Shown in pieces: positions 6,906 through 24,744 of a stretch of DNA of 41,243 nt. This DNA is from an uncultured Hungatella sp. GTDB taxonomy: Bacteria; Bacillota; Clostridia; Lachnospirales; Lachnospiraceae. The first letter of the stretch is position 1. Every line of letters starts with the position of its first letter. The stretch lies in the NCBI GenBank assembly GCA_947066955.1, contig CAMTAF010000021.1:1-41243 (forward strand). Direction: 5' to 3'. The notes below the pieces were generated by a model, which ran no database searches, was not told the DNA's origin, and worked only from the letters and a program-made list of their open reading frames with translations. The position numbers and the translations under genes were made by a program.

Positions 6906-6921
6906 AAGTAAGCTACATTTT

Positions 6922-7000
6922 AGGAGGAAGGCAAATGCGTAAGCGTTTCTTAAGATGCCTTCCGACGACGTGGCGTGTGCCGATACTTTATAAAAAGGAG
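6922..7000 (+). repeat. Repeat A, copy 2 (inside the MATE 5' end)
   Basis: It starts AGGAGGAAGGC and carries the AAATGCG/AGCGTTT hairpin and the GATGCCTTCC arm. It has a shortened second hairpin compared with the copies at 40832-40999 and ends in AAAAAGGAG. One base change relative to those copies (ACG to ATG) creates a start codon 6 nt after the repeat's own AGGAGG. Confidence 0.85.
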
Positions 7001-22916: not shown

Positions 22917-22988
22917 GGATAAACTCCTGACAGAGATGTTTTTCTGTATATTATATGCAGGCCCGGATGAGAAAAGGAAGAAAAATGC

Positions 22989-23017
22989 TTGTAGCTGAAA
23001 AAAATTTATGATACACT
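22989..23017 (+). promoter_or_regulatory. Promoter of mgtE
   Basis: TTGTAG (22989-22994), a 17-nt spacer and TACACT (23012-23017). It would give a leader of about 370 nt before mgtE. Confidence 0.5.
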
Positions 23018-23081
23018 GAAGAGACAGAAAGATTAAGATACAGAAAGGAGTGAAACCCAGAATGGAAGGTCGAAGTCACAG

Positions 23082-23353
23082 GATGAAAGCAGAATCTACG
23101 TATCATGAACGCGCGGCAGGGAGGACAGACCGATCCTGTGTGGGACCGCCATTTTGTCGTCACTGCCTTTTTAGAGATAAGCCCTGGGGACGCTTATGTC
23201 AGCTGTGACGTGAGAGGAACAGGCGAAAGCGTTTATGGCAGCCATCCTGCTTTCCGGCGGGGATGGCTATTTTGCTTGTGAGCAGGGGAACAGCTGACTG
23301 CGCCTTTTGCGGGGCTATCCCCTGCCGGCAGGCTTTCAGGTTCTGCTTTCATC
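23082..23353 (+). ncRNA. Candidate structured leader RNA of mgtE (unassigned class)
   Basis: The element is closed by a long-range 16-bp stem: GATGAAAGCAGAATCT (23082-23097) pairs with AGGTTCTGCTTTCATC (23338-23353) with one G-U pair. Inside are AUAAGC/GCUUAU around 23178-23196, GTCA/TGAC, a GCGAAAGC tetraloop hairpin, AGCCATCC/GGATGGCT (23240-23247/23261-23268) followed by ATTTTGCTT, and GCAGGGGA/TCCCCTGC (23282-23289/23318-23325). An alternative pairing CGGCAGGG (23114-23121) with CCCTGCCG (23320-23327) would compete with the last one. I do not recognise the M-box signature. No gene is visible in 22917-23394. Confidence 0.6.
23240..23277 (+). terminator. Terminator-like hairpin inside the mgtE leader
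   Basis: AGCCATCC/GGATGGCT with a 13-nt loop is followed by ATTTTGCTTG. It could attenuate transcription before mgtE; the T-run is short. Confidence 0.35.
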
Positions 23354-23394
23354 GGTTTTGAATTCCGGTTTCAGACAGTGAAAGGAGAAAAAAT

Positions 23395-24744
23395 ATGGGA
23401 CAGAATCAGAAGAAGCTTATGATGGAACTTGTGGATGCCAGGGATTTCAGAAAATTGAAGGACTCTCTGGCTCAGATGCCGGAGGCGGATATCGCGGATT
23501 TTATGGAGGATCTTACAAGGGAGAAGACGGTGGTGGTGTTCCGGATGCTTCCCAAGGATACAGCCACGGACGTGTTCGCTTTTCTCCCTGCAGAAAAGCA
23601 GCAGGAGATTGTCAACAGCATCACGGACGCGGAGCTGCAGGCAGTGATCGAGGATCTGTTCGTGGACGATGCCGTGGATATGCTTGAGGAATTTCCGGCC
23701 AATGTGGTAAAGAGGGTGCTTAAGAACGCGAAGCCGGATACCAGAAAACTGATTAATCTGTTTCTGCAGTACCCGGAGAACAGCGCCGGAAGCATTATGA
23801 CCGCGGAGTACATGGCCCTGAGAAAGGACATGACCGTGGAGGAGGCATTTGCCTACATCCGAAAGCACGGGGTGGACAAGGAGACCATCTACACCTGCTA
23901 CGTCATGGACGGGAGGAGGACCTTGGAAGGCGTGGTGACGGTGAAGGATCTGCTGATGAACCCTTATGAGACCCGGCTTGAGGACATTATGGACCCTTAT
24001 GTGATCAAGGCCGTGACAACGGAGGATCAGGAGGAAGTGGCGGAGAAATTCACCAGATACGACCTTTTGAGCCTTCCCGTGGTGGACGGGGAGGACCGGC
24101 TGGTGGGCATTGTCACGGTGGATGACATTGTGGATGTCATGGAGCAGGAGGCCACCGAGGATTTCGAGAAGATGGCTGCCATGATGCCCAGCGAAAAGCC
24201 CTATTTAAAGACCAGCGTGTTCATGCTGGCCAAGAACAGGATCCTGTGGCTTTTGATCCTGATGGTGAGCAGCATGGTCACGGGAGCGATCCTGGCCAGG
24301 TATGAGAACGCGTTCGCGGTGATCCCCCTTTTGGTGACCTTTATTCCCATGCTCACGGACACAGGAGGCAACGCGGGCAGCCAGAGCAGCACCCTGATCA
24401 TCAGAGGTATGGCCGTAGGAGAGATCATGCCAAAGGATATGGGAAAGGTGCTGTGGAAAGAATTGAGAGTGGGCCTGGTGGTGGGGGCGATCCTGGGGCT
24501 GGTCAACTATATCCAGCTGATCCTCCGGTTCCCCGGCAATGAAGCGATCTGCCTAACCGTGGTCTTAAGCCTCTTTGCCACGGTGATCCTGGCAAAGACC
24601 GTGGGCAGCGTTCTTCCCATGGCGGCTAAGCTGGCAAAGCTGGACCCGGCCATCATGGCGGCGCCTCTGATCACCACCATTGTGGACGCCTTCAGCCTGG
24701 TGATCTATTTTCAGATCGCCTGCTCCCTTTTGAACCTGGCATAA
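23395..24744 (+). CDS. mgtE: Magnesium transporter MgtE
   Basis: MgtE is a homodimeric Mg2+ channel gated by cytosolic Mg2+. At 449 residues it has the full architecture: an N-terminal superhelical MgtE_N domain (about 1-125), two CBS domains (about 130-250; VTVKDLLMNPYETRLEDIM; GIVTVDDIVDVMEQEA), a connecting helix, and five membrane helices from about 285. The conserved pore segment PMLTDTGGNAGSQSSTLIIR is intact. AAAGGAGAAAAA precedes the ATG. It lies behind an unusually long structured leader, consistent with riboregulation. Confidence 0.96.
   Translation: MGQNQKKLMMELVDARDFRKLKDSLAQMPEADIADFMEDLTREKTVVVFRMLPKDTATDVFAFLPAEKQQEIVNSITDAELQAVIEDLFVDDAVDMLEEFPANVVKRVLKNAKPDTRKLINLFLQYPENSAGSIMTAEYMALRKDMTVEEAFAYIRKHGVDKETIYTCYVMDGRRTLEGVVTVKDLLMNPYETRLEDIMDPYVIKAVTTEDQEEVAEKFTRYDLLSLPVVDGEDRLVGIVTVDDIVDVMEQEATEDFEKMAAMMPSEKPYLKTSVFMLAKNRILWLLILMVSSMVTGAILARYENAFAVIPLLVTFIPMLTDTGGNAGSQSSTLIIRGMAVGEIMPKDMGKVLWKELRVGLVVGAILGLVNYIQLILRFPGNEAICLTVVLSLFATVILAKTVGSVLPMAAKLAKLDPAIMAAPLITTIVDAFSLVIYFQIACSLLNLA

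Follow-up and report, generated by a model that had tools for sequence, protein, structure and literature searches.

A putative translational attenuator built on a conserved short ORF in the mgtE leader of Hungatella and related Clostridia

Control of MgtE in Firmicutes is usually explained by the M-box. The DNA studied here, a 41,243-nucleotide stretch from an uncultured Hungatella species (hereafter the window), holds a gene that is a true mgtE by its domains, and a preliminary description had proposed that this gene is preceded by a switch-like structured cis-regulator, perhaps a divergent or new ion-sensing riboswitch, built around a 16-bp long-range stem. What kind of device, then, is this leader? 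The stem, which joins 23082–23097 to 23338–23353, is exact, and folding positions 23082–23353 gave -126.2 kcal/mol, compared with a mean of -95.7 kcal/mol for shuffled sequences (z = -6.4, with 0 of 200 shuffles as stable). As argued below, the leader is probably a translational attenuator controlled by a short ORF (uORF), and the 16-bp stem is best read as one half of a translation-controlled switch rather than as part of an ion-binding aptamer.

Searching Rfam at the gathering score returned no match in the leader; the only match in the window was a GA-cis RNA (RF02987) at 6919–6991 (38.4 bits, above the gathering score of 34.7), which is unrelated to the leader. Up to E = 10, the leader had three sub-threshold matches (freshwater-2, ZNRD1-AS1_1 and IS1222_FSE), none of them RF00380, and nothing was found in the leaders of seven loci from the genus or of 17 wider relatives. 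This Rfam/Infernal search, which the preliminary description had suggested with RF00380 in particular in mind, agreed with its impression that the M-box core was not evident. We rejected M-box identity, because no match to RF00380 reached the covariance-model gathering score in the window, the seven genus loci or the 17 relatives, and the idea of a structured cis-regulator of mgtE gained support with no known class matching it. None of the 26 genus genomes yielded an M-box, among them 11 with a completeness of at least 90% and little contamination; as a control, the same search detected it in 2 of 14 control genomes, those of B. subtilis and L. lactis. It was present in 20 of 150 genomes of the same family, and these 20 share none with the 14 other genomes that carry the new leader upstream of mgtE, not all of which need be among the 150. 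At the M-box loci that we fetched, an mgtE-like gene came next in three out of three, and the one in G167 (L141) encodes a protein 54.6% identical to the window MgtE. The M-box (ykoK) thus resembles the new leader in being a Mg2+ transporter leader in Firmicutes that precedes mgtE-like genes in the same family, and differs from it in that RF00380 matched neither this leader nor anything in the 26 genus genomes.

Relatives of the leader were found by several searches. A close mgtE (80–100% identity) was present in 8 of 26 genus genomes, and a search of 41 genomes gave a leader match in the same eight. With a covariance model built on eight sequences for the 5′ part, we obtained matches in 18 of 397 family genomes, at 19 places. 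These were the window, 14 sites that precede mgtE, and 4 weak matches (E 0.001–0.008) not upstream of mgtE, so that mgtE lay downstream in 14 of the 18 matches outside the window's genome. A pattern scan of named genomes added 44 leader loci, with an MgtE-like stretch downstream in 40; the other four loci end too soon (191–406 nt, counting up to 100 nt before the match), and among the 40, L090 was matched by its C-terminal part only and some others were cut by the locus end. Named carriers, many of them from the gut, include Hungatella hathewayi, Enterocloster, Lacrimispora, Clostridium symbiosum and C. clostridioforme.

Beyond the family, we searched 344 genomes of the order with a sequence model built from 39 leaders. 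Ten gave a match: the window, six genomes of one genus in another family, and three weak matches not upstream of mgtE. Five of the six other-family leaders precede an mgtE whose product is 62–68% identical. In the sixth, L136, the leader lies between tandem mgtE-like genes, with the 66% copy just before it and a second, weaker one (43% over 60 amino acids) that is cut by the locus end after 180 nt. Across 291 genomes of the class the window was the sole match. The family, order and class sets were samples of genomes passed through strict filters, and the weak matches not upstream of mgtE (L053–L056 in the family search, L137–L139 in the order search) were treated as chance. The 61 leaders found include 42 unique ones, all selected for a downstream mgtE match, and because they were chosen in this way they do not constitute a test of gene context. 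We dropped L089, whose MgtE is only 51% identical and whose X′:SD pairing (see below) fails (p 0.96), from the pairing and coding tests, which left 41 leaders, and we left L135 out of a 46-leader hexamer analysis because it is near-identical to L134.

Aligning the leaders placed the highest conservation at a Shine–Dalgarno (SD) sequence, the start codon that follows it, and the codons for MEGRS.K. In all 41 unique leaders the corresponding frame starts with ATG or GTG, stays open for at least 31 codons and ends before mgtE, whereas the median distance to a stop is 18 and 13 codons in the two alternative frames. Over codons 2–11 (33 unique blocks), pN/pS was 0.43 for the uORF frame, against 1.70 and 0.98 for the two others. 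Because the search pattern had fixed much of codons 1–6, with a bias toward synonymous changes in codons 2–5, we repeated the calculation on codons 7–11, outside the pattern, and the signal held (0.41 vs 1.21 and 1.36; 28 unique blocks). By eye, gaps in the first 57 nt of the uORF in the 39-leader alignment were multiples of three. There is thus, in the leader, a conserved short ORF that has an SD of its own and that we predict from these comparisons to be translated. Its length ranges from 12 to 60 codons across leaders, the short leaders (108–126 nt) carrying uORFs such as VDGRSRNTKAES, and codon 2 is acidic in every leader used (Glu in 41/41, Asp in the 6/6 other-family leaders). The uORF peptide had no match in Pfam. 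Its C-terminal part shifts frame in three of the eight genus leaders (G006, G022 and G015), for which reason this part is probably constrained within the genus as RNA (the P3 helix) rather than as peptide. The mgtL leader peptide of mgtA has acidic and proline codons before a Mg2+ transporter gene and acts on transcription; a stretch resembling it, ADAHPEPEA, occurs in some distant leaders only, and the window peptide differs in lacking the motif. Leaders of the MgtL/MgtQ type, in which intrinsic ribosome destabilisation aborts translation at low Mg2+, are marked by an N-terminal run of acidic, or acidic and proline, residues; here codon 2 is acidic throughout, and an acidic/proline run occurs in part of the relatives. 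Upstream of the uORF, a promoter scan found CTGACA-16-TATTAT at 22927–22954 (1 found, 0.5 expected), and a weaker promoter-like TTGTAG-17-TACACT near 22989–23017 was seen by eye only. The features of the locus are collected in Table 1.

Table 1. Parts of the mgtE leader and the downstream gene, in window coordinates. Energies are duplex energies.
Feature	Position	Strand	Basis
uORF SD, AAAGGAG, part of segment A	23044..23050	+	Sequence; conserved in alignment of 39 leaders
uORF, 48 codons + stop, MEGRSHRMKAESTYHERAAGRTDRSCVGPPFCRHCLFRDKPWGRLCQL	23062..23208	+	Open frame and coding selection across leaders
Segment A, uORF SD and start region; can pair with B	23041..23070	+	A:B -24.8 kcal/mol
Segment B, inside uORF; partner of A or, as P3 3′ strand, of the P3 5′ strand	23145..23173	+	Duplex energies, permutation
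P3 5′ strand; pairs with 23153–23167, competes with A for B	23115..23129	+	P3 -20.3 kcal/mol
P3 3′ strand, within B	23153..23167	+	Duplex energy; two-sided changes in genus leaders
Segment X, P1 5′ strand, uORF codons 7–12	23082..23097	+	X:X′ -25.6 kcal/mol; two-sided and column-wise changes
Segment X′, P1 3′ strand; alternative partner is the mgtE SD	23338..23353	+	Duplex energies, permutations, concerted changes
mgtE SD region (TGAAAGGAG at 23379–23387), X mimic; pairs with 23341–23361, -16.2 kcal/mol	23371..23389	+	
P2 5′ strand; pairs with 23229–23239	23102..23112	+	94.3% of cells paired in 8 genus leaders; no two-sided changes
P2 3′ strand	23229..23239	+	Same pairing analysis of 8 genus leaders
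P4 hairpin (AGCCAT...ATGGCT), then U-rich run; accessory, not seen in shortest leaders	23240..23268	+	
mgtE, Mg2+ channel; MgtE_N, CBS and MgtE domains	23395..24744	+	Pfam PF03448, PF00571, PF01769

Two segments of the leader each have a choice of partners. X′, just upstream of mgtE, can pair with X in the uORF or with the mgtE SD, and B can pair with A or with the P3 5′ strand. In the 41 leaders, X′ paired with the SD of its own leader at a mean of -13.1 kcal/mol, compared with -10.3 kcal/mol when partners were swapped, and 0 of 5000 permutations did as well; for 22 dissimilar representatives, which reduce but do not remove shared ancestry in the permutation tests, the values were -12.6 and -9.7 kcal/mol (0/5000). 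Leader by leader, X′:SD was better than with shuffled X′ zones (p<0.05) in 25 of 41, and p exceeded 0.05 in four of the eight leaders of the window's genus. (This test used uncorrected mgtE starts for L100 and L117; the mask test described below used corrected ones.) Likewise, A:B gave -17.9 vs -14.4 kcal/mol for own and swapped partners (0/5000), with p<=0.05 in 27 of the 41 leaders, and -16.9 vs -13.2 kcal/mol for the 22 representatives (0/5000). Automatic choice of B missed it in several leaders including the window, for which the energies come from hand-given ranges. The six short leaders of the other family (five distinct) gave p<0.03 for X:X′ in five of six and p=0.003 for X′:SD in all six. 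Mutually exclusive stems, one sequestering the mgtE SD, are therefore predicted by these energies for the leader, a prediction that fails in part of the leaders.

The mgtE SD resembles X. A single X′ hexamer pairs at five or more of six positions with both X and the SD in 30 of 46 leaders (a count made with no shuffled control), and within those 30 the X–X′–SD column 3 reads G-C-G in 15 and A-T-A in 9, while column 5 reads A-T-A in 10, A-T-G in 9 and G-C-G in 9. These columns suggest concerted change of X, X′ and the mgtE SD. The covariation check that the preliminary description had proposed for the 16-bp stem gave modest counts. The stem is conserved, and among the eight genus leaders two-sided changes were present in 3 of its 15 pairs (P1), as well as in 2 of 11 pairs of P3 and none of P2 or P4; the total for P1–P4, 5 of 43 pairs, was reached by only 5 of 500 shuffles, but a +3 slide gives 4, and the number of pair types across P1–P4 was no higher than in shuffled sequences (357/500). 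P4 offers no covariation evidence because its outer six pairs are invariant in these eight leaders. An ungapped search for P1 in all leaders was weak (p<=0.05 in 15 of 41) and struck B instead of X′ in many of them. P2 is visible by eye in leaders of the Hungatella hathewayi type but not in the shortest leaders. The preliminary description had also named two competitors for one partner, CGGCAGGG (23114–23121) and GCAGGGGA (23282–23289). Both are indeed complementary to 23318–23327, but the switch at 23282 is not conserved, because relatives have only a short stretch, an unrelated one or none at all in place of that hairpin (in the genus, four leaders out of eight carry little sequence at this point). 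Competition is conserved elsewhere: X competes with the mgtE SD for X′, and B is contested by the uORF SD region and the P3 5′ strand.

These pairings suggest the following mechanism. X would pair over a long range with X′, and the mgtE SD, as a mimic of X, would take X′ when X is unavailable. The second triple, in which the P3 5′ strand mimics A in competing for B, would bring the SD of the uORF under the same switch. In fold I, A:B and X′:SD would form together and hide both SDs; in fold II, P3 and X:X′ would form instead and expose both. A ribosome that pauses at the uORF start, or is lost before covering X, would allow X:X′ and hence translation of mgtE, and a ribosome sitting over X or the P3 5′ strand would force X′:SD. 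The rule that fits best would thus be that mgtE is closed with a ribosome on X or the P3 5′ strand and open with the ribosome held at the start or gone. Comparative sequence analysis supports the uORF, the alternative pairings, their concerted change and the link to mgtE; that the position of the ribosome is the effector in vivo, we infer.

Folding with a ribosome mask gave predictions of the same kind for the window. The accessibility of the mgtE SD was 0.80 in the free leader, 0.83 with the P site at codon 1, 0.44 at codon 4, 0.12–0.13 at codons 7–22, and 0.79–0.80 from codon 25 onward, and the uORF SD was also closed (0.00) with the mask at codons 10–22. Of eight control masks placed downstream of the uORF or at its end, three (within 23205–23267, over P2 and P4) closed the mgtE SD as well (0.14–0.24), from which we conclude that P2 supports the open fold in the window's species, and the remaining five left it at 0.50–0.79. 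Across the 41 leaders, masking X lowered the accessibility of the mgtE SD by more than 0.2 in 12 and raised it in one; masks at uORF nt 30–66 and 45–81, the latter beyond X, produced such a drop in 12 and 11 leaders, and the X and 45–81 masks did not differ (Wilcoxon p 0.42). A mask at the uORF start raised accessibility by more than 0.2 in nine leaders (from 0.17 to 0.85 in L118) and lowered it in six (from 0.97 to 0.20 in L110), so this simple model does not generally predict an open mgtE SD with the ribosome at the start. Of the six short leaders, four had the mgtE SD opened by the start mask, and the X mask left it at 0.17 in every one. The predicted effect of ribosome position on the fold is thus clear in the window and clear in only a minority of all leaders. 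Because thermodynamic masking ignores folding during transcription, we give more weight to the evidence from pairing and coding.

The same observations could be read in other ways. One is a new Mg2+ riboswitch, in which the leader RNA would itself bind Mg2+ and flip between folds I and II without ribosomes, translation of the ORF being a by-product. Such a device would account for the strong fold (z -6.4), the alternative folds, the presence of mgtE downstream in the checkable loci, weak model matches aside, and the conserved nucleotides GGTCGAAGT at the 5′ end, yet we think it unlikely, because the reading frame is under selection with its SD and start codon kept, the shortest leaders (108–126 nt) leave little room for a complex junction, and no block is strongly conserved except the helices and the first uORF codons. 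The ion sensing suggested in the preliminary description, read as the work of an aptamer, is not supported, for similar reasons: conservation peaks where a short ORF under coding selection begins and not in an aptamer core, and the minimal relatives keep little beyond that start and the X/X′/SD pairings. In a transcription attenuator, P3 and P4 with their U-runs would act as intrinsic terminators, and translation of the uORF would control termination before mgtE. U-rich runs do follow P3 and P4 in the window, and the outer stem of P4 is invariant in the genus. A terminator scan nonetheless found 0 terminator-like sites in 22917–23420, many relatives have GTT in place of the run after P3, and no P4 is seen in the shortest leaders although the SD pairing is kept, all of which makes this a very unlikely account. 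An intrinsic terminator as the core device was accordingly rejected, on the scan and on the U-runs not being kept in relatives; of the enclosed hairpins in the preliminary description, one of them said to be terminator-like, several stand, two with U-rich runs after them, and the terminator does not.

A further possibility is an arrest peptide, whose nascent chain would stall near the end of the uORF, which reads CxxCR-stop in many relatives. The signal would be not Mg2+ but, for example, a transition metal, and in the mask model such a stall leaves the mgtE SD open. The C..CR motif does recur at the C-terminus, and masks from codon 25 on leave the mgtE SD of the window open. Against this, the nucleotides encoding C..CR are strand B of P3, and that role is enough to account for their conservation; the reading frame of the C-terminus shifts in three genus leaders out of eight; and C..CR is missing where short leaders have ORFs of 12 and 16 codons, so we give an arrest peptide only a slim chance. 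The uORF peptides of L091, L101, L117–L119, L122, L123 and others end in C..CR-stop, which could be an arrest motif or merely strand B of P3 in frame.

The uORF-controlled attenuator that we favour has a close parallel in Salmonella mgtQ/mgtB, where the alternative-stem logic was tested by mutation and low Mg2+ was proposed to pause or drop ribosomes at the first codons (PMC8092293). As described there, mgtQ shares with our leader a short ORF before a Mg2+ transporter, an ORF region that is itself one pairing partner, an acidic codon 2, and two exclusive sets of stems, one of which hides the ribosome-binding site of the transporter (PMC8092293). It differs in having 8 codons rather than 12–60, in preceding the P-type ATPase gene mgtB rather than mgtE, in being intergenic rather than a 5′ leader, and in its phylum (PMC8092293); two SD mimics, with a second switch on the uORF's own SD, distinguish the present leader. 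We rejected membership of the mgtQ family proper, with a homologous ORF in an mgtC–mgtB type locus, on the mgtE context and the length of the ORF. On account of the mgtE gene, the mgtQ parallel and the constant acidic codon 2, the signal may be low Mg2+, acting through pausing or dropping of ribosomes at the first codons. More broadly, and only tentatively, since we hold it somewhat short of an even bet, the ribosome in two families of Clostridia might serve as the Mg2+ sensor for MgtE, and its early pausing or loss on an MEGRS/VDGRS ORF would flip a switch with two SD mimics. Firmicutes would then have invented the Salmonella mgtQ principle independently, for an unrelated transporter and in place of the M-box. 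If the model holds, ribosome-based Mg2+ sensing has more than one origin, and leaders of 110 nt would offer a very small system for testing it. The mgtE leader of these Clostridia, many of them from the gut, is quite unlike the M-box and centres on a conserved tiny ORF.

Among other known leaders, the Thioalkalivibrio mgtE motif (SRC-65-1), a riboswitch candidate reported only in Thioalkalivibrio, is likewise a structured mgtE leader whose model includes the mgtE SD (PMC11109978). Judged by that description, it differs in its restriction to a single genus and in the lack of any mention of a uORF (PMC11109978). The Mtb M-box with a uORF is different from the present leader because it is an M-box (PMC12810186). 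We found no published description of the leader or its short ORF in the titles and abstract openings of the open-licence PMC papers that our searches retrieved; the mode of action is of a known kind, and in those titles and openings nothing covers the leader family with its gene, host group and doubled SD mimicry.

Other arrangements were seen upstream of mgtE. Three loci (L061, L066 and L083) have a second type of leader with a uORF beginning MDGRSRSC... or VDGRGRSC.... The start of this uORF (GAGTCC[AG]TGGAC) has a pairing partner further along, and for that partner there is an alternative closer to the mgtE SD. Duplex energies, calculated with no control, indicated a similar alternation, and this type is perhaps the same device with other sequences. 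A third type, a long leader with a uORF beginning VDICGRS..., occurs in L081, L082 and L085 and has the GRS codons in common. In L068, L069, L077 and L079, mgtE lies close behind the end of a pnp-like gene, and the MEGRS leader was not seen. In L074, at about 1400–1500, mgtE has a much shortened leader with no MEGRS ORF, in which the sequence right after the conserved GGAAGTGAACA could fold into a hairpin covering the mgtE SD.
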